64,000 bases of DNA from Demequina sp. TMPB413 (GTDB taxonomy: Bacteria; Actinomycetota; Actinomycetes; Actinomycetales; Demequinaceae), in NCBI RefSeq assembly GCF_020447105.2, contig NZ_CP096184.1, positions 2,418,001 through 2,482,000 of the forward strand. The letters run 5' to 3'. This document shows, piece by piece, positions 28,801 through 46,791 of the stretch (position 1 is the stretch's first letter; every line of letters starts with the position of its first letter). Made by a program: the position numbers and the translations under genes. The notes under the pieces are model-generated. The model was given only the letters and a program-made list of their open reading frames with translations. It ran no database searches and had not been told where the DNA came from.

Positions 28801-28807
28801 TCCGTAG
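25802..28807 (+). CDS. LacI-like periplasmic-binding sensor fused to GGDEF and EAL domains
   Basis: 1001 aa. Residues 1-285 are a LacI/PBP1-type sugar-binding fold (LVLTPSLGGDFFGDILTGL, VEHLIEHGHTRIGFVGN, VMSFDNIAAG) without the usual N-terminal HTH and without a signal peptide, so a cytoplasmic sensor. Residues about 300-560 are an unassigned region that may contain a GAF-like part. GGDEF near 648 is intact (ARFGGDEFVILL) and EAL near 775 is intact (FEALLRWRHPERG), with DDFGTGYSSL downstream. It should make and/or degrade cyclic di-GMP in response to a ligand. Possible links to motility are inference. Confidence 0.9.
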   Translation: MTRALTALVLTPSLGGDFFGDILTGLARAVVGAGGRLVVVETLQAHAPRDEAGLPGMFGTQVAWSQVDGVVSITTAVGADYLDRLERAGKPVVLLSSTQLADVDVPVARPDNHRGTVAAVEHLIEHGHTRIGFVGNIAQRDVKDRLEAYTSTLTAHGLAADPALLFPTPDNGETGGASVAERLLASANRPTAVMAGTDRNAIGLMGAVAKAGLEVPRDLAVMSFDNIAAGAFGTPALSSVDPRFDEVGALAGRLILAKMRGDGTSHMTVTPDSTTLELRESCGCAADAHRTISLRDDPLDPTSPEGARAVLHHVLARELRTGSGAADRRSAEAISAIVDEAMVVLEAGDAATARQISTLASSLRNLTSRPSTLRRFTDAMSSAMHNPRLGDGDGRDASAPTRASIAAALWKAQAGAFLHQAELTEAAIAEQYVIDAGLLATGGADPRTLRWLTNTHVKAGALALWEGDPADRRLSIVGEYHRDDDAAALVGTSLMSDEFPPRTLIVEASAAGREVCVVMPVSTRDRDWGLLALVAEIDPTTARETYQHWTALLCAALESQRRQEEVRRSALFDALTGLPNRRLFVQRLEHALALRERSGTPFAVLFLDVDGFKLINDSLGHQMGDRVLKSVATDITGALRDVDTAARFGGDEFVILLPDTEPLDAEVAAKRVQAALATAHDFDGHKITTRVSIGIASTAVDYASAEDVLRDADTAMYRAKTTEPGTVAFFDEAMHDTAVRRASMARAVLLGLQENQFEVHYQPIVNLTTGRTDRFEALLRWRHPERGLLHPEEFLGAIEETADIIQVGHWVLNEVCRKLAAWGPGVDNVSINISDKEFWSQDLLAHVMSTLRRHKLDPHLITLEITEGVLMRRPEMALRIMHRLHEAGLRLHIDDFGTGYSSLETLHRFPVEAFKIDRSFIQSLTEGGNSAALISSLVQLGQALGLSVLAEGVETEEQLAFLQSLGCATGQGYLFMPAVTADRVAELLGRDLHAENSRITP

Positions 28808-30293: not shown

Positions 30294-30339
30294 ATGACCG
30301 CTGAGGCGGCTGACGGGGCGCTGCCTTTGCGGCAGGGAG

Positions 30340-30412
30340 TGGAGCCTAGGGGAATCGAACCCCTGACCTCCTGCTTGCAAAGCAGGCGCTCTACCAATTG
30401 AGCTAAGGCCCC
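30340..30412 (-). tRNA. tRNA-Ala (anticodon TGC)
   Basis: 73 nt. Folds as a full cloverleaf: 7-bp acceptor stem GGGGCCT/AGGCTCC, D arm with AGCTCAATTGGTAGAGC, anticodon arm with TTTGCAA and T arm with GGTTCGATTCC. Discriminator A; CCA is not encoded. Part of the conserved Ile-Ala tRNA pair downstream of DUF3566. Confidence 0.97.
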
Positions 30413-30480
30413 GGACGGCTGTTGGCCGGGCAATCTGTCACCGCCGCGCCGCCGGCATCGTTGCCAACGCCACGGGGTGG

Positions 30481-30554
30481 TGGGCCCAGGAGGACTTGAA
30501 CCTCCGACCTCTTCGTTATCAGCGAAGCGCTCTAACCGCCTGAGCTATGGGCCC
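30481..30554 (-). tRNA. tRNA-Ile (anticodon GAT)
   Basis: 74 nt. Acceptor stem GGGCCCA/TGGGCCC, anticodon loop CTGATAA, T arm GGTTCAAGTCC, discriminator A, no encoded CCA. Sits 68 nt before tRNA-Ala in the transcription direction and just after the DUF3566 gene, as in other actinobacteria. Confidence 0.97.
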
Positions 30555-30625
30555 GTAACGGCCGAGGCCGCGACGAACAAAGATACCCCACCCACGGGCG
30601 GGGATCAAAACGCGCGGACTGGGTC

Positions 30626-31483
30626 CTAGTCGTCGGTGAGCGTGAGGTACACGCCGCCGACCATGCGCGACACCATGTTGTACAGGAATGCGGCGATCAC
30701 TGACAGGCCCGAAATCAGCACGACGTTGGTGACGGCCACCAGGAGCGTCGCCGAAATGACCTTCTGGTAGGCAACAAACTGGAGGATGTCGACCTCTTGG
30801 TCCTGCGTGAAGAGCTTGAGCACCCACTCTTGCATGAGGTCGAACGTTCCCATGGCGTTGAGCGTCTGCCACAACACGTGAACGGCGACCACGAGCATGA
30901 TGCCAGCGGCGATCGACAACAAGAAGCCGATCTTGAGCGCCGACCACGGGTCAACGCGCGACAACAGCACGCGCACCTTGCGGGGCGCGCCTGGCGCGAC
31001 GGGTCCCGACTTGGCATCATCGCTCGACGTGACCTTGTCCTTAGCGGACTTGGTCAGGCGGCCGAGGCCGGCCGTCGCGGACCTCACCTTGTCTTGAGCC
31101 GCGCCGACGACGCCGTGGCTGTCCTCTTCCGTTGACTGCGGGGCGCCGGTGTGGGGAGTACCAGTCTGAGGCGTACCCGTCTGGGGGGTGCCGGTCTGAG
31201 GCGCGTACGAAGGTCGCGCTGGTGCACCTTCCTGGCGCGGCGCCGCCGGTGCCGTTCCTGGTGGGGCGTAGGACGAAGCCGGACGAGACGGTGCCGTGGT
31301 GGAGTGCTGCGACGTGGACGGCTGTCCCGTCGGCTGCGTCCCGGTGACGGGCCGGAAGGCGGTGCGTTGAGGCACCGATCCGCTCGCGGGCATCACGCCT
31401 GCTCGTCGCACAGGGGTCTGAGCCGAAACGGGCGGCGCCGAAGGCTGGCCGCCGTTGTTCGGGTTGCGGTCATCCGCGTTCAT
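30626..31483 (-). CDS. DUF3566 membrane protein
   Basis: 285 aa. The N-terminal 170 residues are polar, Pro/Thr/Gln-rich and include tandem QTGTP pentapeptides (about 31140-31205). The C-terminal 120 residues form the DUF3566 domain with two membrane segments (ALKIGFLLSIAAGIMLVVAV and LVAVTNVVLISGLSVIAAFL). ATG 31483 follows AGGAGGAG. Normally this gene is directly downstream of gyrA and followed by tRNA-Ile and tRNA-Ala; here the tRNAs follow but gyrA is 12.7 kb away. Confidence 0.9.
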   Translation of the reverse strand: MNADDRNPNNGGQPSAPPVSAQTPVRRAGVMPASGSVPQRTAFRPVTGTQPTGQPSTSQHSTTAPSRPASSYAPPGTAPAAPRQEGAPARPSYAPQTGTPQTGTPQTGTPHTGAPQSTEEDSHGVVGAAQDKVRSATAGLGRLTKSAKDKVTSSDDAKSGPVAPGAPRKVRVLLSRVDPWSALKIGFLLSIAAGIMLVVAVHVLWQTLNAMGTFDLMQEWVLKLFTQDQEVDILQFVAYQKVISATLLVAVTNVVLISGLSVIAAFLYNMVSRMVGGVYLTLTDD

Positions 31484-31721
31484 GCAATCTCCTCCTGGCC
31501 CTACGGGCCCACGTCTGACCAAGAGTAACCGAGCAATGCCTCCGGGTCACGCCTAGCCAACGCGCCTGGGGTGTTCTGCGCTCCCGGCGACCATGTCGGG
31601 TCCCGGGTGGAGCCGGCCTTTCACGGGGTGAGGAGGGTCCCGGGCAGTGGCAAACGTCCCGCGCGCAGGGCCGCGTCGCTCCTTACTGTGAAGGGGAACC
31701 GATACCCCTGGAGGCATTGCC

Positions 31722-34171
31722 ATGAAGCTCGTAGTCGTCGGAGGCGTGGCAGCAGGAGCTTCCACTGCCGCACGCGCCAGAAGGCTCGATGAGTTTGCCG
31801 AAATCGTTGTGTTTGAGCGCGGTCACCACGTGTCCTTCGCGAACTGCGGTCTGCCTTACCACGTGGGTGGCGTCATCGCCGATCGTGACCGCCTGTTGCT
31901 CCAAACCCCTGAGAGCCTTCGCGAGTCGCTCAACATCGACGTGCGCATCGCGTCAGAGGTGGTCGCGATCGACCGCGAGGCCAAAACGGTCACCGTGCGC
32001 GAGGTGGACGGGGACCGCGAGTACACCGAGTCCTACGACAAACTCGCCCTGTGCATGGGCGCCGAGGCTCTGCGCCCCCCTCTGCCGGGAATCGACCACC
32101 CTGCCGTCGCCGTCTTGAGGCGCAAAAGGACGGCAAGCGCGGCGTCGTCAGGGCCGTGGTTGTTGGCGCCGGGTACATCGGCCTGGAGATGGCCGAGAAC
32201 CTTCACCACCGGGGCGTGAAGGTCGACGTGGTCGAGCTATCCGACCAGATCCTTCCCCCCGTCGATCACGAGATCGCCGCCCCCGTCGAGCAGCACCTCA
32301 CCGCGCGCGGCATCGGCCTCCACTTGTCGACGGCCGCCGCGGCCTTCCAGCCCCTGTCGGACTCCGACGGCGCCGAGCGAGTGACCGTCGAACTCAACTC
32401 TGGCGTCAACATTCTTGCCGACCTGGTGATCCTGGCCGCGGGCGTGCGGCCGTCGGTGGGTCTCGCGAAGGACGCCGGGCTTGAGTTGGGCGAACGCGGC
32501 GGCATCAAGGTCGACACCCACATGTGCACCTCGGACCCCGACATCTACGCGGCCGGCGACGCCGTCGAAACGCCGCACCCCGTGCTCCCCGGCGCCTACC
32601 TCGCTCCTCTTGCAGGGCCTGCCAACCGCGAGGCGCGCGTGGCCGCAGAGAACATCTGTGGGCGCTCCACCGAGTACAAGTCGACTCAAGGCACCAGCAT
32701 CGTCAAGGTGTTCGACATGGTCGCGGGAGGAACCGGAGCGACCGCCCGGCAACTCGACGCTACTGGCATGGCGTATCGCGTGGTGCACGTGCACCCCAGT
32801 GGCCACGCCGGGTACTACCCCGGCACCGCCATGATGCACATCAAGGTGCTGTTCTCCCCGGACGACGGCAGGGTGCTTGGCGCTCAGGCGTGCGGCTTTG
32901 ACGGCGTGGACAAGCGACTCGATCTGTTCGCGATGGCGATCCGCGCTGGTCTGACGGTGTACGACCTCGAGGAGCAGGAGCTCGCCTACGCGCCCCCCTT
33001 CGGTTCGGCCAAAGACCCCGTCAACATGGCCGGTTTTGTCGCCTCGAACGTGCTGCGGGGCGACCTGACGCTCTGGTACTCGCAAGACTTCCCTGCCGCT
33101 GTTGATGGCGCCAGGCTCGTAGACGTGCGCACCACCGATGAGTACGACATCTGGCACCTGCCCGGTGCCGAGTGCGTCCCCCTCGCGACGTTCCGTGATG
33201 CGATCAAGGATTGGGACCGCTCCGTGCCGGTGCGGCTGTACTGCGCAGTTGGCTTCCGGTCCTACCTGGCGCACAGGATTCTGGTGCAGAACGGCTTCGC
33301 CGACGTCGCGACGCTCTCGGGCGGATCGACCACCTTCAAGCACGTCCACGACACGGAGAAGGACGAGTACGAGGCCCAGCCGCCGATGGAGAACTACGCG
33401 GAGAAGATCTCGGTGGCTTCGGCCGTTGCGGCGGCCACCGGGCAGTTGACCGACCTCGACTGCACAGGACTCGCATGCCCTGGCCCGATCATGCGACTTG
33501 CCGGCGCGATGAAGGCCGCCAGCGTCGGCGACGACATCAGGGTGACCGTGTCCGACCCCGGCTTCGCTCTCGATGCCCCCGCGTGGGCTTCGAAGAACGG
33601 CCACTCGCTGGTGGCGATGGAACCCAAGGGCCCCGGCTACGTGGCGACGTTCCGCAAGGGCGGCGTGCACCCCATGTCGATGGGTGGCGGCAAGCCCGCG
33701 AGCAACAAGCTGTCGATGGTGGTGTTCTCCGGAGACCTCGACAAGCAGATCGCGGCGTTCATCATCGCGAACGGTGCCCTCGCGATGGGCCAAGAGGTGT
33801 CGATGTTCTTCACCTTCTGGGGACTGAACGGCCTGCGGAAGTCCGACCCGCCCAAGCGTCAGAAGAAGATGATGGAGAAGATGTTCGGCGCCATGATGCC
33901 GCGCGGGGCCAACAAGCTCACCCTGTCGCAGATGCACATGATGGGCGCTGGCACCGCGATGATCAGAAACGTCATGAAGCAGCACGACGTGCAGACGCTT
34001 CCTGAACTGATCGCCGCCGCTCAAGAGGGCGGGGCGCGATTGCTGGGCTGCACCATGACGATGGATCTGCTGGGCATGGCGCAGTCCGACTTGCTCGACG
34101 GTGTCGAGTTGGCCGGTGTGGCGACCTTCCTTGGCGACGCCCAAGAGTCAGGGACGTCTTTGTTCATCTAG
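31722..34171 (+). pseudogene. CoA-disulfide reductase-rhodanese-TusA-DsrE fusion, frameshifted
   Basis: The first part (31722 to about 32120) encodes an FAD-binding start MKLVVVGGVAAGASTAARAR and the redox Cys42 (SFANCGLPYH). The rest continues in another frame from about 32120 to 34171 with NAD-binding AVVVGAGYIGLEMAENLHHR, the dimerisation domain, a rhodanese domain (RLYCAVGFRSYLAHR), a TusA-like domain (GLACPGPIMRL) and a DsrE/DsrF-like domain to the end. Between LRR (residue 133) and the NAD motif the family normally has about 18 residues that are largely missing here, so a deletion of 3n+1 nt within about 32112-32130 is likelier than a single-base error. Intact relatives reduce CoA or sulfane disulfides. 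Convergent with the SulP gene. Confidence 0.8.
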
Positions 34172-34212
34172 CGTCAGCGCGGCCTCGGGGAGGGGCCGCC
34201 TTCTCGGGGGGT

Positions 34213-34247
34213 CGGAGCCCCGCGATGGAGGGGGTCGCGGGGCTCCG
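34213..34247 (+). terminator. Hairpin terminator after the sulfur-handling gene
   Basis: Perfect 13-bp stem (CGGAGCCCCGCGA, 34213-34225, with 34235-34247) and 9-nt loop, 41 nt after the stop at 34171. Confidence 0.75.
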
Positions 34248-34292
34248 TCACGTCCTGCGCCCGCCTCGCGTCCGCCCCACCACCCCCCGGTA

Positions 34293-34415
34293 GTGGCTTG
34301 ATTTGTACCGCGACACGCCGTGTTGGCGGCCGTGGTGGCTTGATCTGTACCAGCGCCGGTACAAAATTAGCCACACGGCGCTGATTCGGCCGCGCAGCGG
34401 TACGAATCAAGCCAC
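34293..34415. repeat. Nested inverted-repeat cluster of a 17-bp motif (four copies)
   Basis: Copies GTGGCTTGATTTGTACC (34293-34309) and GTGGCTTGATCTGTACC (34335-34351) face GGTACAAAATTAGCCAC (34358-34374) and GGTACGAATCAAGCCAC (34399-34415). Outer pairs with outer and inner with inner, so the whole forms an imperfect palindrome of about 60-nt arms with a 6-nt centre. The 34172-34536 gap otherwise holds a terminator and a tandem repeat, and no gene that I can support. Confidence 0.85.
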
Positions 34416-34443
34416 TTCGCGGGGCCGGCTGCAGCCTTGGCCT

Positions 34444-34511
34444 GGCGCGAACGCGGAGCCCACCGCCGCGTCGACCCGGCGCGAACGCGGAGTCCACCGC
34501 CGCGTCGACCC
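34444..34511. repeat. Tandem repeat, 2 x 34 bp
   Basis: Units 34444-34477 and 34478-34511 begin GGCGCGAACGCGGAG and differ at one base. They lie just after the stop of the SulP gene (minus strand) and beside the inverted-repeat cluster. Confidence 0.85.
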
Positions 34512-34536
34512 GGCCCCGGCGTCGGCCGTGCAAGGG

Positions 34537-36126
34537 CTAGTGCCCCGCGCCCAGATTCCCCGACATCTTGTCGTGGAAGGCGAGCGAGGCGTCGTTAAGG
34601 CCCTCGATGCTCACCGCGGTGCCGTGGCGCTCGTACTTGTAGACGATGCTGTCGAGCGTCGCCACTGTCGAGGCATCCCAGACGTGCGAGTCGGACATGT
34701 CGATGATCACGTTCGCCGGGTCGCCCGAGTAGTCAAACTGACTGAACAGGTCGTTGGAGCTCGCGAAGAACAGCTCGCCGGTGACTTTGTACACGCGGGT
34801 GTCCCCCTCGATGGGCCCGCCCGTCACGTTCGCGAGGTGAGCCACGCGCCGCGCAAACAACACCGACGCCAACACCACGCCGGCCACCACCCCGTAGGCA
34901 AGGTTGTGCGTGAACACCACGACGCCGACGGTGGTGAGCATGACGCTCGTCTCCGACTTCGGCATGCGCTTCAGCGTCGACAACTGGATCGAGTGCCAGT
35001 CGAAAGTCGCCCAAGACACGTAGATCATCACCGCGACGAGCGCCGCCATGGGGATGGTCGCCACCACATCGCCGAGGGCGAGGATGAGGACCAGGAGGAA
35101 GGCCCCCGCCATGAAGGTCGAGAGCCGTGTGCGTGCCCGTCCGGCCTTCACGTTGATCATGGTTTGGCCGATCATCGCGCAGCCGCCCATGCCGCCAAAG
35201 AAGCCGGTGATGATGTTCGCCGCGCCCTGACCCCACGCCTCGCGGGTCTTATCGGAGTGGCTATCGGTGATGTCGTCCACCAGCTTGGCGGTCATGAGCG
35301 ATTCAAGTAGCCCCACCAACACGACCCCCACGGCGAACGGGAACACAATCTGCAACGTCTCCCATGTGAACGGCACTCCTGGCCACAGCAGCGCAGGCAG
35401 TCCTTCCGGCAACTCGCCTTCGTCGCCGACGGTGGGGACGGCCAGCGCGAAGGCGGTCGTGATGACGGTGAGGAGCACGATCGCGACGAGAGGCGCCGGC
35501 ACGGCACCGGTCAGGCGGGGGAAGAAGGTGATGATCGCGAGCGCCGCCACGACGAGCGGGACCACCATCCACGACACGCCCGTCAGGTGGGGAATCTGCG
35601 CCATGAAGATGAGGATGGCGAGTGAGTTCACGAACCCGACCATCACCGAGCGCGGAATGAAGCGCATCAGCGTGGCGACGCCCAGCACCGCGAGCACCAC
35701 CTGGAGGATGCCGCCGAGGATGATTGCCGCGATCAGGTAGTCGAGCCCGTACTCGCGGGAAAGCGGGGCCACCACCAGCGCGATCGCCGCGGTCGCGGCG
35801 CTAATCATGGCGGGCCGGCCACCGAGGAAGGCGATGCTGATCGCCATGGTGAAGCTTGCGAACAGTCCCACCCTCGGGTCAACTCCCGCAATGATCGAGA
35901 AGGAGATGGCCTCGGGGATCAGTGCCAACGCCACCACGAGACCCGACAGGATCTCCGTGCGCGCGATCCGAGGGCTCATCCACGCTTGACGCTTCCAGGT
36001 GCTTGGGGCCCAGAACTTGCCGTAGGCGTTGGTCACCTCGGGCACGCCGGTGGGGGTGCGCTCCTCGATGCCTGCTGTCACGAGCGCATTGATATCGGCT
36101 TCTTGGGCACGGGTGGTGGGAGTCAA
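34537..36126 (-). CDS. SulP-family anion transporter with STAS domain
   Basis: 529 aa. About ten to twelve membrane segments beginning [20 protein letters not shown], with SulP motifs [20 protein letters not shown] and [20 protein letters not shown]; the C-terminal STAS domain (about 420-525) includes [20 protein letters not shown]. SulP proteins carry sulfate, bicarbonate or other anions. The start is taken at TTG 36126 because AAGGAA stands 5 nt upstream and the family begins nearby; ATG 36228 would add 34 unlike residues. Next to the sulfur-handling fusion, sulfate or thiosulfate is a reasonable but unproven substrate. Confidence 0.88.
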
Positions 36127-36413
36127 GGAGTTCCTTACTGTGGGCGGCGGGGCGCCCGATGGGACGGCAGGCAAGCGCGAGTAGTGCGTCAAAGCGCCAA
36201 CGCCGGGGCAGAGATCGGGGCGACACACCGCGTGCGGTGGCTCATGGGCAGGGGACAGTGGCGCAGGGGTGACCCGCGCGAAGTTCAGAGGGGAGTCGGC
36301 CGACGGTGGCCAGGACTAAGGGTAGCGGACGACGCTGTTGCCGCCCTGGGCCTACCGTGCTCACCGATCGCCGTGGCTGAGTGTGTGCCGTGGCAGGCCA
36401 CCGCGTGACCCGG

Positions 36414-36507
36414 TGGCGGCTCAATCTGTACCGGCCCCTGCGCAAGGCGGTACAGATTGAGCCACGACGCGGGAAGTGGTGGCCAAAACCGGTACGAAAT
36501 AGACCAC
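36414..36507. repeat. Second cluster of the 17-bp inverted-repeat motif
   Basis: GGCTCAATCTGTACC (36418-36432) faces GGTACAGATTGAGCCAC (36449-36465), an almost perfect hairpin. A third copy GGTACGAAATAGACCAC (36491-36507) follows, bracketed by GAAGTGGT/ACCACTTC. The 36127-36593 gap holds this cluster, probably the SulP promoter, and no gene that I can support. Confidence 0.8.
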
Positions 36508-36551
36508 TTCTGGGGGCGTCGTGATCCGCCGAGGTCAGTGCCGCGCCGACA

Positions 36552-36597
36552 GTGACGGCGTCAACAATCGCGGTGCGGACAACGACCGCGCCGTCAC
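36552..36597 (-). terminator. Possible terminator overlapping the arabinofuranosidase stop
   Basis: Perfect 9-bp stem GTGACGGCG/CGCCGTCAC with a 28-nt loop; its upstream arm covers the stop codon at 36594-36596. The long loop makes this tentative. Confidence 0.35.
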
Positions 36598-38105
36598 CCC
36601 AGCGCGAGCACCGTCCACGACACGGGCGGAAGCGTGATTGTCACCAGGCCATCGTCCACGACCACGGATTCGTTGTCGGCCAGCCCCACCCGCTCCCGGT
36701 CTGTGAGCGTGTTCTTGGCGTAGAAGTCTTCGTCGCTCAGGGTGCGCGCAGAGGAGACCTTCACGTCTCCGAGGCCACGCGCGTCGATCGTGACCTCGGT
36801 GCTCGAGTCCTGGCTCCTGTTCACCAAGAACACGGCCGAACTGCCGGACTCCGCGTCGTGGGTCGCGACTGCATCGACCACGTTGACGGTGCCGTAGTCC
36901 TTGGTTTCGTACGTGTCGGACGTGAGCTTCAGCGTGAGTGCATCACCCCGCGCCAGACGGGATGTCTCGGCGAATGGGAAGAAGGTCGTCTGACGCCACG
37001 CCGGGCCGTTCGGCTCGGTCATGATGGGTGCGATGACGTTGACGAGTTGCGCAAGGCTCGCCGAGGTCACGCGGTCCGCGTGACGCAAAAGCGAGATCAT
37101 CAAGTTGCCGAAAACCACCGCGTCCGCCACTGAGTAGACGTCCTCGAGGATGCGCGGCGCCTCTGGCCACTCATCGCGGTCGGTCACTTTGTCGGTCGCG
37201 TGATAGCGGTCGATGTACCACACGTTCCATTCGTCGAACGAGATATTGATGGTCTTGTCGCTGCCGCGCACTGCCTTCACGTGGTCCGCCGTCGCCACGA
37301 CGGACTCGATGAAACCGTCCATGTTGACGGCCGACGCCAAAAAGCTGTCGAGGTCGCCGTTCTTCTCCTCGTAGTACGCGTGGCACGAAATGTAGTCCAC
37401 GTCGTCGTAGGTGTGTTCGAGAACGGTGCGTTCCCACGACCCAAAGGTCGGCATTTGCGCGCTTGAGCTGCCACACACCACGAGTTCGAGGTCCGCGTCG
37501 ACCTGGCGCATCGCCTTGGCGGTCTGTGACGCAAGTTTGCCGTAGTCATCGGCGGAACTGTGGCCCAACTGCCAGGGGCCATCCATCTCGTTGCCGAGGC
37601 ACCACATGGAGATCCGGTGCGGTTCAGCGTGACCATTCGCCACCCGCCAGTCCGACAGGCGGGTGCCCGAGGGGATGTTCGCGTACTCGAGAACGTCGAG
37701 AGCCTCTTGCACGCCTCGAGTACCCAGGTTGACGGCGTACATGAGCTCGCTGCCAACCTTCTTGACCCACACCGCGAACTCGTCCAGCCCCACCTGATTG
37801 GTCTCGGTGGAGTGCCACGCGAGGTCGAGCCTCCGCGGCCGCTGGTCACGCGGTCCGACGCCATCCTCCCAGCGGTAACCCGACACGAAGTTGCCGCCTG
37901 GGTACCGGATCGCTGAGACGCCCAACTCCTTCACCAGCGCGATCACATCTTCGCGGAAGCCGTCCTCGTCAGCGTTCGGGTGGCCCGGCTCATAGATTCC
38001 GTCGTAGATACACCTCCCGAGGTGCTCGGCGAAGGAGCCGAACAGCCTTCGGTCGATGGGCCCCACAGTGAAGTGGGGGTCAAGGGTCAGGTGCGCTTGC
38101 AACAT
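36594..38105 (-). CDS. GH51 alpha-L-arabinofuranosidase
   Basis: 503 aa. (beta/alpha)8 barrel plus C-terminal beta domain. Acid/base Glu173 in WCLGNEMDGPW and nucleophile Glu292 in ISFDEWNVWY, with family motifs IRYPGGNFVSGYRWEDG and YISCHAYYEE. No signal peptide, so it acts in the cytoplasm on imported arabino-oligosaccharides. It is the last gene of the ABC importer operon (30 nt after the MalG-like permease). Normal length. Confidence 0.94.
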   Translation of the reverse strand: MLQAHLTLDPHFTVGPIDRRLFGSFAEHLGRCIYDGIYEPGHPNADEDGFREDVIALVKELGVSAIRYPGGNFVSGYRWEDGVGPRDQRPRRLDLAWHSTETNQVGLDEFAVWVKKVGSELMYAVNLGTRGVQEALDVLEYANIPSGTRLSDWRVANGHAEPHRISMWCLGNEMDGPWQLGHSSADDYGKLASQTAKAMRQVDADLELVVCGSSSAQMPTFGSWERTVLEHTYDDVDYISCHAYYEEKNGDLDSFLASAVNMDGFIESVVATADHVKAVRGSDKTINISFDEWNVWYIDRYHATDKVTDRDEWPEAPRILEDVYSVADAVVFGNLMISLLRHADRVTSASLAQLVNVIAPIMTEPNGPAWRQTTFFPFAETSRLARGDALTLKLTSDTYETKDYGTVNVVDAVATHDAESGSSAVFLVNRSQDSSTEVTIDARGLGDVKVSSARTLSDEDFYAKNTLTDRERVGLADNESVVVDDGLVTITLPPVSWTVLALG

Positions 38106-38134
38106 GGTTCGCTTTCAGAGTCTGGTGGAAGGAT

Positions 38135-39049
38135 CTACTTGAGGCTGCCGATGGACAGGCCGCCCTGCCAGTACCGCTGGAGCGACAGGAACGCGATCAC
38201 CAACGGGATGATAGAGATGAGCGAGCCCATGATGATGATGCTCCACAGCGATGTTCCGCCACCGTTGTTGGCTGACGCAAGGCTCTGCCACAGGCCGATG
38301 CCGACCGTGACCGGGTAGAGCTTGGTGTCGGAGAGCATCGCCAGCGGCAGGAAGTAGTTGTTCCAGGTGGCGACAAGCGACAGCAGCAGCACCGTCACCA
38401 CAGCCGGACGCATGAGCGGTAGCGCCACTTGGAGGAAGGTGCGGAACTCGCCCGCACCGTCGATGGCGGCCGCATCGAGCAGCTCATCCGGCACCACATC
38501 GCGGGTAAATACCGTCATGAGGTACACGCCGAAGGGGCTGAGCAGCGACGGCAGGATCACCGCCCAGATCGTGTTGGTCAGCTCGAGTCGCGACAGCATG
38601 ATGAAGGTCGGGATGACGAGCGCGGTGAGCGGCACCATGACGGTGCCGAGCAGCATGGAGAACGCCAGGCGGCGGCCCTTGAACTTGTACTTGGCGAAGC
38701 CGTAGCCCGCGAGTACGCACAGGATCGTCGCGCCGCCGCCGCCTACGACCGCATAGAGCGCCGAGTTGAACAGCCAGCGGGCATAGATGCCTTCGTTGAA
38801 CGAGAACAGCTGCTGAAGGTTGTTCACGTAGTCGACGTCTTCCGCAAACCACAGGGCGCTTCCACCACTGAAGAGACCAGCGGCGCTCTTGGAGCTGTTC
38901 ACGACGATCCACCAGAAGGGGATCACGAAGTAGATCAGCAGCGCACCGAGGAAGAAGTGTGGTGCCAAACTGCGGCGGGGGCGACCCTTGCTCGACTTGG
39001 CGAAAGGGTCTGCCTTGGTTCCGGCGCGGCGAGAGGTGAGATCGGTCAT
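38135..39049 (-). CDS. Sugar ABC transporter permease (MalG/AraQ-like)
   Basis: 304 aa, six membrane segments. The EAA loop ELLDAAAIDGAGEFRTFLQV docks the ATPase. C-terminal motif RYWQGGLSIGSLK is typical of the MalG-type subunit. Overlaps the end of the MalF-like gene by 4 nt. No ATPase gene is nearby; such actinobacterial importers often share an MsiK-type ATPase encoded elsewhere (inference). Confidence 0.92.
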   Translation of the reverse strand: MTDLTSRRAGTKADPFAKSSKGRPRRSLAPHFFLGALLIYFVIPFWWIVVNSSKSAAGLFSGGSALWFAEDVDYVNNLQQLFSFNEGIYARWLFNSALYAVVGGGGATILCVLAGYGFAKYKFKGRRLAFSMLLGTVMVPLTALVIPTFIMLSRLELTNTIWAVILPSLLSPFGVYLMTVFTRDVVPDELLDAAAIDGAGEFRTFLQVALPLMRPAVVTVLLLSLVATWNNYFLPLAMLSDTKLYPVTVGIGLWQSLASANNGGGTSLWSIIIMGSLISIIPLVIAFLSLQRYWQGGLSIGSLK

Positions 39050-39692
39050 GACAGGAAGTTCCCTCGCTTACGTGTGAAGAATAGGAAGAGGTAGACGCAC
39101 ACGAACACCACGAACCCAAGCGCGAAGGAAATCGCCGATCCGTAGTTCACGTTGCCCAGCGCGAACGCCTGTTGGAACGCGTACATGTTGGGCGTGAAGT
39201 CCTGCCCGATGGAGCCCGCAGCGAGGAACTGCAGCACCTTCGGTTCGGTGAAGAATTGGAGTGTTCCGATCAGAGCAAACACGAGGATCAGCAGCAACGA
39301 GTTCGTGATGAGCGGCACCTTGACACGCAGAGTGATCTGGAACGCGCTCGCCCCGTCGATGCGGGCGGCCTCGTACAGCGTCGGGTCGATGCCCTGGAGC
39401 GCCGCGAAGATGATGATCATGTAATAGCCGGCCCACTGCCATGTCACGAGATTGAGCAGGCCAAAGAAGATGAGGTCCTTGCTGAGCAGGTCGGGCGGAG
39501 TGGCGCCAAAGAGGCCCCATATCTCCGCCATCGGCCCAAAGTTCTTGCTGTAGAGAAAGCCCCACATGATGGTGCCGATGACCACGGGGATGGAGTACGG
39601 CAGGAAGATCATGAGCCGCGCGAAGCGGGTGAACTTGTTGACCACGGCATCGAGCACGAGCGCCATCACGAGCGATATGAACATCTGCAACG

Positions 39693-39724
39693 GAAGGGGC
39701 TGGTGCAGTGATTGGTGACAACTG
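39693..39724. repeat. IS left end: GAA target duplication plus left inverted repeat
   Basis: GAA at 39693-39695 is the left copy of the 3-bp target duplication. The inverted repeat 39696-39724 begins GGGGCTGGTGCAG and matches the right end at about 23 of 29 positions, including a second block TGGTGACA. Confidence 0.85.
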
Positions 39725-39765
39725 ACTTCTGGGATCCGGGCGGGTCCTGGTGGAAGGATGTTGTC

Positions 39766-40065
39766 ATGTCTAGAGCTTTTCCTGAGGAGTTTCGCCGTGA
39801 CGTGGTCGCGGTCGCGCGGCGCCGTGAGGCGCCGCAGAAACAGATCGCCGAGGACTTCGGGATCTCTCATGCGACGTTGTCGAACTGGTTGCGTCAAGCC
39901 GATGTCGAAGACGGTGAGAAGCCAGGGGTGACCCGTGAGCAGGCGCAAGAGGTGCGGGAGCTGCGTCGGCGGAACCGGCTTCTCGAGCAAGAGAATGAGG
40001 TGTTGCGTCGTGCGGCAGCGTACTTGTCGCAGGCCAACCTCAGGCTCGGTGGCCACCCAAAATGA
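39766..40065 (+). CDS. IS3-family transposase OrfA
   Basis: 99 aa. N-terminal helix-turn-helix of the IS3/HTH_Tnp_1 type (MSRAFPEEFRRDVVAVARR, DFGISHATLSNWLRQAD) followed by a Leu-rich coiled coil ELRRRNRLLEQENEVLRRAA used for dimerisation. ATG 39766 is the family start. The stop TGA overlaps the orfB ATG (ATGA). Confidence 0.92.
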   Translation: MSRAFPEEFRRDVVAVARRREAPQKQIAEDFGISHATLSNWLRQADVEDGEKPGVTREQAQEVRELRRRNRLLEQENEVLRRAAAYLSQANLRLGGHPK

Positions 40066-40937
40066 TCTACCCGCTCGTCCGCGAGTTGGCCGTGGACGGC
40101 GTGCCCGTCACGGTGACGTGCCGGGTGCTCAAGATCGCACGTCAACCGTACTACCGGTGGCTCAGTGACCCGGTGACAGCGCTGGAGTGGGTGCAGGCGC
40201 ATCGGATGAATGCGCTCGTTGATGCTCACCGCGAGGACCCTGAGTTTGGTTACCGGTTCCTTGGCGACGAGGCCGAGGTCGCGGGGTGGCCGATGGCGCG
40301 CAGAACCGCGTGGTCACTGTCCGCTCAGGCGGGCCTGGTGTCGGCCACACAGCGACGCAAACGGGGCAAGGCCACCAAGGCCGGCCCGCCCGTGTTCGAC
40401 GACTTCGTGAGGCGCATCTTCAGGGCCGACCGCCCGAACCAGGTGTGGCTCACGGACATCACGGAACACCAAACGGGTGAAGGCAAGCTCTACCTTTGCG
40501 CGGTCAAAGACCTGTATTCCAACCGCATCGTGGGCTACTCGATCGGTGACCGCATGCCAGCCCAGTTGGCCGTGAGCGCCCTGAACAACGCCGTCGCTTC
40601 CCGCGGCGACGTCACCGGATGCGTCCTGCATGCCGACCGTGGATCCCAATTCAGGTCCCGGAAGATGGGCCACGCACTGAACCGTCACCACATGGTCGGA
40701 TCCATGGGTCGCGTCGGCGCTGCCGGGGATAACGCCGCAATGGAATCGTTCTTCAGCCTGCTCCAAAAGAACGTGCTGAACAGGCAACGGTGGGACACCC
40801 GCCAAGAGCTCCGCATCGCGATCGTGACCTGGATCGAACGGACCTACCACCGGCGCCGCCGCCAAGACCGGCTCGGACGCTTGACCCCCATCGAGTACGA
40901 GACCATCATGAACACACCACTGGCCCTCGCGGCCTAA
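40062..40937 (+). CDS. IS3-family transposase OrfB (DDE integrase)
   Basis: 291 aa. N-terminal HTH_21-like region (about 48-95) and an rve-type integrase core with Asp132 (WLTDITEH), Asp192 (LHADRGSQF) and Glu228 (AAMESFFSLLQKN); the last two are separated by exactly 35 residues, the DD35E spacing. It lies in the -1 frame relative to orfA with a 4-nt overlap beside AAAATGA, so a fused OrfAB could arise by frameshifting or OrfB by re-initiation. Confidence 0.94.
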   Translation: MIYPLVRELAVDGVPVTVTCRVLKIARQPYYRWLSDPVTALEWVQAHRMNALVDAHREDPEFGYRFLGDEAEVAGWPMARRTAWSLSAQAGLVSATQRRKRGKATKAGPPVFDDFVRRIFRADRPNQVWLTDITEHQTGEGKLYLCAVKDLYSNRIVGYSIGDRMPAQLAVSALNNAVASRGDVTGCVLHADRGSQFRSRKMGHALNRHHMVGSMGRVGAAGDNAAMESFFSLLQKNVLNRQRWDTRQELRIAIVTWIERTYHRRRRQDRLGRLTPIEYETIMNTPLALAA

Positions 40938-40940
40938 ACC

Positions 40941-40972
40941 GAACTGTCACCAGTTCCTGCACCAGCCCCGAA
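40941..40972. repeat. IS right end: right inverted repeat plus GAA target duplication
   Basis: The inverted repeat 40941-40969 ends CTGCACCAGCCCC, complementary to the left end. GAA at 40970-40972 is the second copy of the target duplication. Confidence 0.85.
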
Positions 40973-41312
40973 TGAGCACGAGCGAGAACGTGAGTACGAA
41001 CTGGACGCCGGACTGGAAGTTTGGATCGGTGAACGCCTTCTCGTAGTTCTCGAACCAGACGAAGCTCGTGCCGCCGATGAGGGCGGAACGGAACAGGCTC
41101 AAGTAGAAGGCGTACGCGAGGGGCGCGACCAGGAAGACGAGAAAGACGATGGCGAACGGTGCGACGAAGAGCCAGCCGACGATGCTGTGTCGACGCCTCG
41201 CCTGCTTGCGGGTGCGCGCGCGGCGCAGGTTGGGGGCTTTGAGGGCGCGGGAGTCCGTGCCGACGCCTGGTGCTGCGGTACTCATAGCAAGAAGTGTCCT
41301 TCGCGATCAAGG

Positions 41313-41348
41313 GAGGCGTACCGGCCCGGTTTCGGGCCGGTACGCCTC
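41313..41348 (-). terminator. Intra-operon hairpin after the binding-protein gene
   Basis: Perfect 16-bp stem (GAGGCGTACCGGCCCG) with a 4-nt loop, between the binding protein stop (41358) and the permease start (41285). Such hairpins commonly reduce read-through or protect upstream mRNA so that more binding protein than permease is made. Confidence 0.75.
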
Positions 41349-41357
41349 CATTGCCAT

Positions 41358-42746
41358 TTAGTCGGTGATGACGGTGAAGCCCTGCTCCTCCGCGTAGGCG
41401 ACAGCGGACGCCTGCAGAGCATCAGCAGCCTCATCGCCGGTCATCTCACCAGCGTTGATCGCTCCCAGCACCTCGGTGAACTCCGCGTAGTAGTACGAAG
41501 CGAAGGGGCTGTAGGTGAATCCCTCGTAGGCGTTGGCCGCAGGAATGTAGACCTCCTTGTTCGCCTGCTGGCCGGCGAAGAAGCCAACCTCGGCGTTGAG
41601 GAACTCATCCGACGTGAGGACGTCCTTGTTGAGCGGGAAGATGATCTGCTCAGTCCATCCCTGCTCAAGCGACTCCGGGTCAGCGTAGATGCCGAAGGCT
41701 ACCTTGGCGGCCAGCTCGACGTTCTCTGCCTGCTCGGTCACGGAGAATGCGGAACCACCCCAGTTGATAGCGACAGGGTTGTTCGGGTCCCACTGGGGCA
41801 GGGGAGCGACGGCGAACAGGCCCTCGTCCTCACCCTGGCCGACACCAGCACCAGTGAGGTAACCGGGCGCCCATGCTGCCGAGAGGTAGGTGGCGTAGTC
41901 GCCGCCCACCACACCGGAGATGTACTCAGGCGTGAACTGGTCCTGCGTTCCCACGAGTCCCTGCTCGACGAGGCTGGCCCAGTAGTTGAGCACCTCCTTC
42001 GATGCCTGGTCATTGAGGTTGATGGTGATCTCCTCTGGAACCAGCGGGTCGTACTCGAACGGCGTCGCACCATTCTGGATCTGGAGCGCCATCATCGGCG
42101 CGGGAACGTTGGCACCCAGGTCACCGAACAATGGGCCGCCAGCGTCCTTGACCTTCTTGGCGGCAGCTTCGTACTCCTCCCAGGTGGTCGGGATCTCGAT
42201 GTCGTACTCTTCGAAGACGTCCGTGCGGTAGATCATGGCCATCGGGCCACCGTCGACGGGTGCGCCAAACACTGCGTCGCCCACCGAGACATCCTTCCAG
42301 GCGCCGACGCTGAAGTTGTCCTTCACGTCCTCGTAGCCGTACTCGCTGATGTCAACCAGGGCGCCTTGCACCACATAGTTCGGGATGCGGTCAGCCTCGA
42401 GCATGATGACGTCAGGAGCACCACTTCCGGCGGTAATCGCGGTCTGGAACTTGTCGTACTCCTCGTTGCCCTGGCCGACGTTGGTCCAGCAGATCTGGAC
42501 GTCGTCGTTCAGGCCGTTGAAGTTGTCGACCACGTCGCCCATGTTCGGGTACCAGCCCCACACGGACACTGTGGGAGCGTCGGGCTTGGGGATGGTGTTG
42601 TCGCAGGTGGACGAACCGCCGCCGCCCCCTCCGTCAGTGGCCACTGGGCCGTCGGTGGTGTCTTCGGAGACGGATCCGCTGCACGCTGTGAGCAGCAATG
42701 CGACGGCGGCTGACGCAACCGCAGTTGAGACGAGTTGTTTCTTCAC
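41358..42746 (-). CDS. Sugar ABC transporter substrate-binding lipoprotein
   Basis: 462 aa. Lipoprotein signal peptide with lipobox LLTACSG (Cys22), a Gly-rich linker, then a family 1 solute-binding fold (about 55-460; VSVWGWYPNMGDVVDNFN, INWGGSAFSVTEQAENVELA). It captures sugar outside the membrane for the permeases downstream. GTG start with AGGGAA upstream. First gene of the importer operon, behind the LacI operator at 42930. Substrate inferred as arabino-oligosaccharide from the GH51 gene. Confidence 0.92.
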   Translation of the reverse strand: MKKQLVSTAVASAAVALLLTACSGSVSEDTTDGPVATDGGGGGGSSTCDNTIPKPDAPTVSVWGWYPNMGDVVDNFNGLNDDVQICWTNVGQGNEEYDKFQTAITAGSGAPDVIMLEADRIPNYVVQGALVDISEYGYEDVKDNFSVGAWKDVSVGDAVFGAPVDGGPMAMIYRTDVFEEYDIEIPTTWEEYEAAAKKVKDAGGPLFGDLGANVPAPMMALQIQNGATPFEYDPLVPEEITINLNDQASKEVLNYWASLVEQGLVGTQDQFTPEYISGVVGGDYATYLSAAWAPGYLTGAGVGQGEDEGLFAVAPLPQWDPNNPVAINWGGSAFSVTEQAENVELAAKVAFGIYADPESLEQGWTEQIIFPLNKDVLTSDEFLNAEVGFFAGQQANKEVYIPAANAYEGFTYSPFASYYYAEFTEVLGAINAGEMTGDEAADALQASAVAYAEEQGFTVITD

Positions 42747-42929
42747 GTTGAGTGTTCCCTTCGATGATGCGTTGGACTTCGTTGTCTCTTGAGGGCTAGA
42801 TGGGGACGCGATTCCCGAGCGCGAGCAGGCACCGCATTGGTGAAGGAACGATGAGCGATCCGGTCAGGCGAGGCGGGGGCCTCCTCCACGACGAATCGCC
42901 ATTGATCCGACAGCCAGACTGATTGGCTT

Positions 42930-42943
42930 TTGCAACGTTGTAA
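42930..42943. promoter_or_regulatory. LacI-type operator upstream of the importer operon
   Basis: TTGCAACGTTGTAA is a near-perfect 14-bp palindrome centred on CG, the layout of LacI-family sites. It lies about 185 nt upstream of the binding-protein start and 68 nt from the end of the lacI gene. The 42747-43010 gap otherwise holds the leader. Confidence 0.7.
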
Positions 42944-43010
42944 TTTTGGTGTTACAGGTAGCATCTTGCAGGCAAGGGGAGGGCTTGTCAAGCGTTCCCG
43001 TGGCCCGGCT

Positions 43011-44024
43011 CTAACCAGCAGTGGACTCGCGCACCACGACGCGAAAGGCCGACAACAGCTCGCGCGGTGCAGGGCCCGCTTTGCCTTTCTGCCCGATTCG
43101 TTCCATGAGGACATCGATGGCCGTTTCCGCAATCTCGCCTCTACCTGGATCGATGGTTGACAGGCTGGGGATGGAGTAGCGCCCCTCGTCAATGTCGTCG
43201 AAACCCACCACGGCGACGTCTTTGGGAATGGCGAGACCTGCTTCCTGCAGCATGCGCATCGCCCCAAGGGCGAGCTCATCATTCATCGCGAACAGGCCGT
43301 CAAACTGCGTTCCGGCGTCGAGGAGTCGCTTCATCCCCTCGGCGCCGTTTGCCCTGTGCCACAGGCCCACGTGGACAACGAGTGCCTCATCGAAGGGGAT
43401 GTCCGCACCAGCGAGCGCCTGTCGGTAGCCCGTATAGCGCAACCCAGCAGAGCCGATCACTTCCCCTTCGTGCGCTCCGATCACGGCGATTCGCCGTCGA
43501 CCCAGTTCGATCAGGTGCTCAGTCGCCGCTTGCGCGGCTTCGACGTTGCGCATGGTGACGTGGTCGGCAGGGCCGTTGAAGATCCGCTCGCCCAGGAGGA
43601 CAAGAGGTGTATCGATATCGACAAGCGCAGCGTCGTCGATACCCAACCCCAGCGGGCTGAACAGAAGTCCGTCAATGAGTTGCAACCGCGGCCCCCGCAG
43701 TACCTCCAGCTCGCGGTCCCGGTTGCCGCCCGTCTGCTCAATGAGTACTACGAGGCCGCGCTTCTCTGCCGCTTGAATGACCTCGTCCGCAAGTTGGGCG
43801 AAGTACGCGAGGCTCAGTTCTGGCACGGCCAGCCCGATGAGTCCCGACCTTCCCGATCGCAGATGACGCGCCGACACGTTCGGCCGATATCCGAGCTCGT
43901 CGATCGCGGCCTGGACCCGTATGCGCGTCGGTTCGCTGACGTGTGGGTGGTCGTTGACGACGTTGGACACGGTTTTGAAGGACACGCCCGCCACCTTGGC
44001 GACGTCGTGCAAGGTAATGGCCAC
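43011..44024 (-). CDS. LacI-family transcriptional regulator
   Basis: 337 aa. N-terminal HTH and hinge (TLHDVAKVAGVSFKTVSNVV, RPNVSARHLRSGRSGLIGL), then a two-lobe sugar-binding domain (HLIELGRRRIAVIG, VVGFDDIDEG, PSLSTIDPG). Likely represses the arabinoside importer until the sugar arrives. Same strand and directly upstream of the operon it should control. Confidence 0.92.
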   Translation of the reverse strand: MAITLHDVAKVAGVSFKTVSNVVNDHPHVSEPTRIRVQAAIDELGYRPNVSARHLRSGRSGLIGLAVPELSLAYFAQLADEVIQAAEKRGLVVLIEQTGGNRDRELEVLRGPRLQLIDGLLFSPLGLGIDDAALVDIDTPLVLLGERIFNGPADHVTMRNVEAAQAATEHLIELGRRRIAVIGAHEGEVIGSAGLRYTGYRQALAGADIPFDEALVVHVGLWHRANGAEGMKRLLDAGTQFDGLFAMNDELALGAMRMLQEAGLAIPKDVAVVGFDDIDEGRYSIPSLSTIDPGRGEIAETAIDVLMERIGQKGKAGPAPRELLSAFRVVVRESTAG

Positions 44025-44100
44025 TCCGCGATCCTCCCTGTTGCGCTGAGACTACAACCTCACCCAACGCCGCAATCCACCGGCGGCGCCGATTGCTGCT

Positions 44101-44158
44101 GGTACGGATTCAGCCACCAGACGCCGTTTGCGGCGAGATTCGGTACGAATCAAGCCAT
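44101..44158. repeat. Third cluster of the 17-bp motif (two direct copies)
   Basis: GGTACGGATTCAGCCAC (44101-44117) and GGTACGAATCAAGCCAT (44142-44158) occur in the same orientation between the lacI start and the gyrA stop. They mark the gyrA-side edge of the accessory stretch. Confidence 0.8.
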
Positions 44159-44172
44159 TTCTTGGGCGCGGT

Positions 44173-46791
44173 CTAGCTCTCCTCCGGTGCAGCATCGTCG
44201 TCGAGCGCGGTGCCGGATTCAACTATTTCGTCCTCAACCACCACGTCCGTATCAACCACGGCGTCGGGGTCAACAGCCTCGTCACCGTCGAGGTGACGCT
44301 CCACGTTGCGCGCGACCCCGATGATGCGGTCACCCTTGCCAGGCTTGGCGAAGATCACGCCCATGGTGTCGCGGCCCTTTGCAGGAACCTCATTCACCAA
44401 AGACCGCACCACCTTGCCGCCGCTCATGATGACTAGGACCTCGTCGGTCTCTTCGACCAACAGCGCTCCGACCAAGTCCCCGCGCTCCTCTTGGAGTTTG
44501 GCCACCTTGATGCCGAGGCCTCCGCGGCCCTGGACGCGATACTCATCGACAGCGGTGCGCTTGGCGTAGCCGCCCTCTGTCACCACAAAGGAGAACGCCC
44601 CCTCGGTGACCACGTCGAGTGACAGCAATTCGTCCTCATCGCGGAACTTCATGCCCTTGACGCCGGACGTCGCGCGCCCCATGGGGCGCAGCGCCTCGTC
44701 GGTCGCCTCGAACGTGAGCGACAGGCCCTTGCGACTCACCAGCATGAGCTTGTCATCAGGAGCGACCAGCCTCGCGGCCACCAACTCGTCGGGCCGCAAC
44801 TGGCCGTCGTCACCCTCGACGTCGCGCAGGTTGATGGCGATGAGGCCGCCGCTACGGTTCGAGTCGTAGGAGGTCAGGTCCGTCTTCTTGACCAGGCCGC
44901 GCTTGGTCGCGAGCACCAGGTACGGCTTGTCCTCGTACGTGCGCAGGTCCATGACCTGGGCGATCTCTTCGCCCGGCTGGAACGCGAGCATGTTGGCCAC
45001 GTGCTGGCCCTTGGAGTCGCGTCCGCCCTCTGGCAACTCATATGCCTTGGCGCGGTAGACCCTGCCGAGGTTGGTGAAGAACAGCAACCAGTGGTGGGTG
45101 GTCGTGACAAAGAAGTGGTCGACCAGGTCGTCCGTGCGCAGGGTTGCGCCCCGCACGCCCTTGCCGCCGCGGCGCTGAGCCCTGTACTGGTCGGAGCGCG
45201 TGCGCTTGGCGTAGCCGCCGCGGGTGATGGTGACCACCACCTCTTCCTCGGCGATGAGGTCCTCCATCGACACCTCGCCGTCGAACGGAGAGATCTCGGT
45301 ACGCCGGGCGTCGCCGTACTTCCGCACGATCTCGCCGAGCTCCTCGGAGATGATGGTGCGCTGGCGCGACTCCGACGCGAGAATGCCCTGGAGATCGGTG
45401 ATCTCGGCCATGAGCGCGTTGTAGTCGTCAGTGATCTTCTGGCGCTCGAGGGCAGCGAGACGACGCAGTTGCAGGTTGAGGATTGCCGTCGCCTGGACCT
45501 CGTCCACATCGAGCAGTTCCATCAGGCCCGTGCGCGCGGTTTCGACATCTGGCGAGCGACGGATGAGGGCGATGACCTCGTCGAGCGCGTCGAGCGCCTT
45601 GAGGTAACCCTGCAAGATGTGGGCTTCGCGCTCGGCCTCTCGCAGGCGGAAAGCGGTACGACGCTGGATCACCTCGACCTGGTGCGTCACCCAGTGGCGC
45701 ACAAAGCCGTCGAGCGGCAACGTGCGGGGCACGCCGTCGACGATCGCGAGCATGTTGCAACCGAAGGTGTCTTGAAGCTGCGTGTGCTTGTAAAGGTTGT
45801 TGAGCACCACCTTCGCGACGGCGTCGCGCTTGAGCACAATCTCGAGGCGCTGGCCCGTGCGACCGGACGACTGGTCGCGGATGTCGGCGATGCCTGCGAC
45901 CTTGCCGTCCTTGACCAAGTCGGCAATCTTGATCGCGAGGTTATCGGGGTTCACCTGGTACGGAAGTTCGGTGATGACCAGGCACATGCGGCCCTGGACT
46001 TCCTCGATATTGACCACGGCGCGCATCGTGATGGAGCCGCGGCCGGTGCGGTATGCCTCTTCGATGCCGCGGCGGCCAAGGATGGTCGCGCCGGTGGGGA
46101 AGTCGGGCCCTGGGATGCGCTCCATGAGCGCGTCAAGGAGTTCCTCGCGCGTCGCCTCGGGGTTGTCGAGGTGCCACTGCACGCCCTCGGCTACCTCGCG
46201 CAGGTTGTGCGGAGGAATGTTGGTCGCCATGCCGACGGCGATGCCAGCGCTGCCGTTAACCAGCAGGTTGGGGAATCGCGCGGGAAGGATGATCGGCTCT
46301 TGTTCGCGGCCGTCGTAGTTATCTTCGAAAGCGACAGTGTCCTTGTCGATGTCGCGGACCATCTCCATGGCCAACGGCGCCATCTTGCACTCGGTGTACC
46401 TGGAGGCGGCAGCACCGTCGTTGCCAGGGGAACCGAAGTTTCCCTGACCCTGAATCAGCGGGTAGCGCAGGGACCACGGCTGAACCAAGCGCACCATGGT
46501 GTCGTAGATCGCGGAGTCGCCGTGTGGGTGGTACTTACCCATGACGTCGCCGACGACGCGGCTGCACTTCGAAAACGCGCGGTCGGGGCGGTAGCCGCCG
46601 TCGAACATCGCGTACAGGACACGGCGGTGGACGGGCTTCAGTCCGTCGCGCACGTCGGGAAGGGCGCGGCCGACGATGACCGACATCGCGTAGTCCATGT
46701 AGGACCGCTGCATCTCGGTATTGAGGTCGACGGCCTCGATGCGGCCGTGGTTGATGAGCTCTGGGCTATCAGATGTCAAGGAAACGCACAT
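44173..46791 (-). CDS. gyrA: DNA gyrase subunit A
   Basis: 872 aa. Active-site Tyr132 in AASRYTEC, the quinolone-determining segment [17 protein letters not shown] with Ser and Asp at the usual resistance sites (wild-type pattern), GyrA-box QRRGGKG and six C-terminal blades for DNA wrapping. An acidic tail of about 45 residues ends the protein. The start is uncertain: ATG 46791 is given; TTG 46779 has better-placed AAGGA, and ATG 46800 is possible. It overlaps the end of gyrB, so translation is coupled. Confidence 0.95.

Follow-up and report, generated by a model that had tools for sequence, protein, structure and literature searches.

The DNA analyzed here (the window, 64,000 nucleotides) corresponds to C1:2418001-2482000 of the single-contig 2.92-Mb genome of Demequina sp. 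TMPB413 (G000), and the subject of this work is the interval in it that separates gyrA from a gene encoding a DUF3566 protein. One fixed flank of this interval is gyrA, located at 44173-46800 on the minus strand (PF00521, E 5e-153), beyond which gyrB, DciA and recF are found in order. The other fixed flank is a cofA-like gene with a DUF3566 domain at 30626-31522 on the minus strand (PF12089, E 2.9e-35); behind it, the genes for tRNA-Ile (30478-30554) and tRNA-Ala (30339-30412), both on the minus strand and identified by ARAGORN and Rfam, form the intact far flank. About 12.65 kb of accessory DNA lies between DUF3566 and gyrA. The original prediction described this layout correctly: the DUF3566-tRNA-Ile-tRNA-Ala end is intact (genes at 30339-31522), gyrA ends at 44173 without adjoining DUF3566, and the sulfur genes, the arabinoside locus, the IS (an IS3-family element) and the repeat clusters that it had placed in the accessory DNA are all present. 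DUF3566 corresponds to the CofA family, and the order gyrA-cofA(DUF3566)-tRNA is conserved in Actinobacteria according to PMC7205459. TMPB413 resembles that arrangement in the sequence of cofA, tRNA-Ile and tRNA-Ala and in their orientation, which is that of gyrA, but departs from it, together with all other judgeable Demequina genomes (38 of 38), in having gyrA and cofA separated by a gap, which is 3.1-22.9 kb in these genomes.

These distances were obtained by comparing the positions of gyrA and DUF3566 across 79 genomes, that of TMPB413 included, 44 of which represent Demequina (G000 and G001-G043, with the common genus code g1), the genus that also supplied the nearest gyrA relatives of TMPB413 in a named collection. 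Both genes are on one contig in 38 of the 44, and they are split in every one of these; the distances are those between match ends, and the one for TMPB413 is 13.2 kb. The unjudgeable genomes are G005 and G018, whose best gyrA match is only 42-43% identical and probably a paralogue, G012, which like G018 has no match for DUF3566, and G006, G028 and G029, which have the genes on different contigs. The two judgeable genomes of sister genera have the genes 0.60 kb (G044) and 0.75 kb (G046) apart, and a third, G045, has no DUF3566 match. For other families of the order, the distance is 0.12-1.6 kb in 31 of 32 genomes, the remaining one (G053) having the genes on different contigs. In a quick gyrA tree built from 40 genomes, Demequina forms one clade that excludes G044 and G046. 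Since the two genes are close together in the sister genera and other families and split in all Demequina, the gap is a trait of Demequina and does not stem from a recent insertion in the strain TMPB413. A site with gyrA beside DUF3566, for which the original prediction had looked to close relatives, was seen in none of the 38 judgeable Demequina genomes, and because all of them are split, the separation is ancestral at the level of the genus, which is what that prediction had named as evidence against itself at the level of the family. The restriction of the split to one genus, together with the gyrA tree, suggests that the gap dates back to the base of Demequina or close to it. An order of gyrase, cofA and tRNA genes near the replication origin that is common across Actinobacteria would in that case have been opened in one genus and have stayed open for gene turnover, and Demequina is a clean clade for asking how such variable loci start.

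The gene content of the gap was compared using the intervals of 37 further Demequina genomes plus the corresponding regions from two genomes of the sister genus; genes were called with a simple codon-based caller, their proteins were clustered, and families were named from Pfam scans of representatives. G041, which is 50% complete and has a broken gyrA, was left out of the tree and the family counts, and G026 and G041 were left out of the lengths. The interval ranges from 2.8 to 21.9 kb with a median of 10.5 kb (36 Demequina genomes). Counted per 37 genomes, catalase is present in 33, a sulfur fusion in 29, Fur in 25, SulP in 22, an S33 hydrolase in 19, LPG-synthase type and MFS/ATG22 proteins in 17 each, and GDPD in 15. 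Fixed core flanks and a gene content that differs between genomes are thus found together in the 38 genomes that have both flanks on one contig. The fewest changes needed on the gyrA tree, followed in brackets by the mean of 50 shuffles, were 6 (12.8) for the hydrolase, 5 (12.9) for MFS, 4 (11.8) for GDPD, 8 (11.9) for SulP, 9 (12.7) for the LPG synthase, 3 (3.9) for catalase, 6 (7.4) for the fusion and 9 (10.0) for Fur. In quick single-gene trees, strong splits conflicted with strong gyrA splits in 5 of 14 cases for the fusion and in 5 of 8 for catalase. The changes on the tree and the split conflicts indicate that the content is partly vertical-looking and partly exchanged.

The sulfur fusion and SulP have long been part of the interval. 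In TMPB413 the former is a broken gene at 31722-34171 on the plus strand, encoding a coenzyme A-disulfide reductase/rhodanese/TusA/DsrE fusion; relative to its relatives it has a frameshifting deletion of 52 nt near 32108-32120, and most other species that carry the fusion have it unbroken, with a length of ~830-850 aa. The fusion gene of TMPB413 is decaying. The SulP-type anion permease is encoded at 34537-36228 on the minus strand (PF00916, E 1.5e-48). An open reading frame of 119 aa at 34174-34533 is probably no gene; it has no family match and overlaps repeat DNA.

The arabinofuranoside operon, in contrast to the sulfur families, is a local arrival in the interval of TMPB413. It spans 36594-44024 in the order LacI-sugar-binding protein-permease-permease-ArfA, all on the minus strand: a LacI-family regulator (43011-44024; PF00356, PF13377), a sugar-binding lipoprotein (41358-42746; PF13416, E 6.7e-26), an F-type ABC permease in two parts, a G-type sugar ABC permease (38135-39049; PF00528), and the GH51 arabinosylfuranosidase ArfA (36594-38105), which has PF06964 and scores 726.7 bits against the cut-off of 625 for the equivalog NF051901. 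The N-terminal part of the F-type permease (40970-41285) matches positions 7666-7980 of locus L195 from the relative G017, and the C-terminal part (39046-39684) matches L195 7990-8628 with 85% identity over 213 columns. Both parts thus match one contiguous stretch of G017, and the element that divides the gene in TMPB413 lies at 39696-40969 on the plus strand. It belongs to the IS3 family (NF033516, 248 bits against a cut-off of 160; HTH_Tnp_1), which it resembles in its pair of orfA (39766-40065) and orfB (40062-40937), its inverted ends (39696-39720 and 40945-40969) and the 3-bp direct repeat GAA on either side; nothing unusual was seen in it. Two changes can be read directly in TMPB413: the splitting of one permease by this element and the frameshifting of the sulfur fusion by a deletion.

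Among the 40 regions mapped, the sugar-binding protein, both permeases and ArfA occur only in the interval of TMPB413. More distant relatives of ArfA gave some match in 33 of the 46 genomes searched, and TMPB413 itself has a second copy at 69% identity. G017, whose gyrA is 91% identical, carries the operon without a break and in the same gene order, with 76-79% nucleotide identity, at ~C1:209.9-216.1 kb, ~134 kb from gyrA (73.6-76.1 kb). There the operon fills an insert of ~6.7 kb between tRNA-Ser(GCT) and tRNA-Arg (L195 4423-11334), bordered on its far side by 16 nt that duplicate the 3' end of tRNA-Ser; no integrase gene was found among the genes seen in this insert. The corresponding site in TMPB413 is empty, the two tRNA genes being 59 bp apart. 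Since the operon is at tRNA-Ser in G017 and this site is empty in TMPB413, the operon has been mobile; either of its two positions may be the older one.

Based on these data, we consider it likely that the interval represents the form that a genus-wide variable locus, an accessory-gene hotspot, takes in this species, where older sulfur content is combined with a locally acquired operon. The locus is genuine and varies at the level of the genus, but it belongs to a known kind and is rather ordinary. Given the differences between the genomes, small operons would have been gained, lost and swapped since the gap opened, while the flanking genes kept their place and orientation. Exchange may, with about an even chance, have proceeded via homologous recombination in the conserved flanks or in shared interval genes; this is the likeliest route because neither an integrase nor a copy of a neighbouring tRNA end was found in the interval, the scan for element genes in the intervals of other species having covered selected proteins. 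Oliveira et al. 2017 (PMC5635113) report that some chromosomal hotspots of horizontal transfer lack mobile elements and that recombination is raised in flanking core genes. The Demequina interval is similar to these hotspots in its high turnover between fixed core genes and in that no integrase was found, and differs in that turnover is seen between species of a genus instead of between strains, and in that the flanking DUF3566 conflicts with gyrA in only 1 of 14 strong splits. The latter number speaks against the proposed view, as do the conflicts with gyrA for SulP (0 of 9), the LPG synthase (0 of 12) and MFS (1 of 8); these counts do not demonstrate frequent recombination at the flanks. It should also be noted that the trees are quick single-gene trees and the genes come from a simple caller, and that the word "hotspot" reflects content differences at this interval alone, not a genome-wide ranking.

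Also located in the interval are three clusters built on a 17-nt core, loosely GGTACRRATYRAGCCAY: cluster A (34284-34424, four cores on both strands), cluster B (36413-36515, between SulP and the operon) and cluster C (44098-44170, directly behind gyrA, where G017 and G032 have sites as well). With a stricter core, the genome of TMPB413 contains 73 copies with at most two mismatches, in 27 clusters, and a reversed control gave 0. Of the 37 pairs of neighbouring cores on one strand, 33 have a spacing of 41-43 bp (81, 82, 123 and 123 bp in the other four), the minus arm lies left of the plus arm in all nine mixed clusters of TMPB413, and the 16 clusters that were read all lie outside called open reading frames. 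When one mismatch is allowed, the core is found in 4 of the 79 genomes, namely TMPB413, G012, G017 and G032. The interval of TMPB413 contains 2 of the 27 clusters (p 0.006 by length, and 0.024 by non-coding length under the assumption of a 10% non-coding genome, for which a rough caller later gave 15%), and that of G017 contains 3 of 12 (p 8e-6 by length, 1e-4 by non-coding length), the two enrichments not being independent, as the genomes are related. As a control, twenty evenly spaced 20-kb stretches of TMPB413 (400 kb) hold neither repeat sites nor genes for proteins with DUF222 and HNH domains. With respect to the 3' ends of genes, the arrays show an orientation, seen in 16 of 22 arms, that is at most suggestive. 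Folding of five clusters as RNA gave structures that beat those of shuffled sequences for the three inverted clusters (z -5.5 to -8.7) and not for the two single-strand ones. Cluster A had no match on plasmids, and in viral contigs the paired pattern was absent and a single core was found once, without a second copy in 401 bases, which we take as chance. A search of the literature on intergenic dispersed repeats in actinobacteria returned no papers.

A second repeat family, with a core near GAGTGCCGGACAGG that is unrelated to the first, has a 41-bp period and the same succession of minus and plus arms in G013, G029 and G034 (L113 707-825; L254 3348-3402; L255-L260), and in G034 it lies directly behind gyrA, as the first family does in TMPB413. 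Separately, three copies of a third repeat, 45 bp apart, were seen in the gyrA-DUF3566 interval of G007 (L090 8532-8635, equal to L261 4664-4767). The window itself has, on the minus strand at 16672-16730, two weak copies of the first core (two and three mismatches) with a spacing of 42 bp, and a 34-bp tandem repeat of 2.5 copies beside cluster A at 34431-34514.

An array or site lies ~100-200 bp upstream of a DUF222-HNH gene, in one relative orientation (6 of 6), at six loci in three genomes: three arrays in TMPB413 (L248 1927-3884, L249 3535-5282 and L250 2098-3926), two in G017 (L197 5146-6722 and L251 4308-5957), and one site in G032 (L157 1-1517). The L248 copy has both domains of a 13E12-type DUF222 + HNH protein (PF02720, E 7.3e-34; PF01844, E 1.1e-6); it was the copy checked for Pfam domains, and the other five loci were found with it by tblastn. 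Among the TMPB413 copies, DNA similarity sets in no more than 3 bp from the outermost core and covers most of the gene, and because it begins there, the array constitutes one end of a shared unit. Most clusters are solo: 13 of the 16 TMPB413 clusters read have no DUF222-HNH gene in their 3-kb locus. Arguing against a link between array and gene, two plasmid homologues that were read (L252 and L253) lack a 42-bp array, L253 having other tandem repeats, and the second repeat family has no DUF222-HNH gene in the seven loci read (G013, G029). Relatives of the protein were found in six plasmid records, and none in phages or viral contigs.

REP and BIME sequences are short intergenic repeats, many of them solo and some in inverted pairs, that are associated with RAYT transposases. 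The Demequina repeats are similar in being short and intergenic, with many solo copies and some inverted pairs, but differ in the regular spacing of their units at 41/42 bp, and a Y1-type RAYT transposase as their driver was rejected, as PF01797 has no match in the TMPB413 genome. A comparable situation is that of the REP13E12/DUF222-HNH repeats of mycobacteria and relatives, which, according to PMC13061034 and PMC10589994, share with Demequina the presence of a DUF222 + HNH protein in multiple copies per genome. The Demequina copies differ in that each of the six read is preceded by a 41/42-bp array, also found solo, which the two plasmid homologues lack. The REP13E12 regions of M. tuberculosis are said in a 2026 preprint (PMC13061034) to lack a defined biological function, and the literature on DUF222/13E12 and REP13E12, to the extent that its texts were accessible, had nothing on such arrays, which is no proof of absence. 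We regard it as possible, though doubtful, that the clusters belong to an undescribed dispersed element consisting of a 41/42-bp array and a DUF222-HNH gene, with the HNH nuclease as driver and the arrays also spreading alone through intergenic DNA, in the manner of REP sequences with their RAYT transposases; arrays that share this geometry but have unrelated cores are present in other Demequina clades, and the arrays in the interval would be marks of this element that may aid the swapping of modules. The newest lead from this locus, still unproven, is the arrays together with the HNH protein as their possible partner; if true, the link would offer a first way into the mechanism of 13E12-type genes.

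A more far-reaching idea, which we consider improbable, is that the arrays, moved by the DUF222-HNH unit, opened the interval and keep reshuffling it through breaks or recombination at the arrays. Arrays are located at three of the four module junctions in TMPB413 and four clusters are present in the G017 interval, and the enrichments, the empty 400-kb control and the position upstream of DUF222-HNH genes at six loci would also fit. However, the split is genus-wide and the array family is found in only 4 of 79 genomes, so the arrays cannot have opened the site; moreover, they are intergenic wherever read, so that a position at junctions is expected, and no break points were mapped inside arrays.

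Still less likely is an origin of the interval as a genomic island or integrative element that a site-specific recombinase placed there, perhaps at the nearby tRNA genes. These genes are ~1 kb from the interval, and G017 carries the matching operon in a tRNA-Ser insert, but the window genes scanned include no integrase, the sole recombinase being the IS3 transposase inside the permease. In addition, the tRNA genes lie beyond DUF3566, and for the last 16, 20 and 30 nt of the nearby tRNAs the interval offers no match that exceeds those of shuffled queries. An island borne by tRNA-Ile or tRNA-Ala was therefore rejected: neither an integrase nor a duplicated tRNA 3' end was found. Elsewhere in the TMPB413 genome, C1:2223003-2256591 (ends in L245 and L246) is likely a tRNA-Arg-borne insert of ~33 kb: the tRNA-Arg at 2256518-2256591 is intact, and 47 nt at 2223003-2223049 resemble its 3' part.

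The least tenable explanation, which we dismiss as highly improbable, attributes the split to one recent event in this strain, either an insertion of all 12.7 kb or a rearrangement, that disrupted a rigid gyrA-DUF3566 pair: the genes do lie next to each other in the sister genus and in 31 of 32 genomes from other families, and the arabinoside operon is private to TMPB413 at this site, but all 38 judgeable Demequina genomes are split and 29 and 22 of 37 intervals contain the sulfur fusion and SulP families, respectively. What stands of the original prediction of an insertion or rearrangement at a rigid site is the layer formed by the operon and its IS3 element. The proposed comparison of GC content and codon use with the flanks yielded no foreign signature: GC content at third codon positions (GC3) is 0.74-0.90 for the interval genes against 0.86 for gyrA and gyrB, and the operon has a GC content of 0.626, a value matched or undercut by 11 of 227 windows of equal size across the 64 kb. 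Composition is uninformative as a sign of foreign origin, as GC and GC3 do not separate the interval from its flanks.

Finally, at some distance from the interval, the window encodes at 25802-28807 a protein of 1001 aa in which a LacI-type periplasmic-binding domain is joined to GGDEF and EAL domains.

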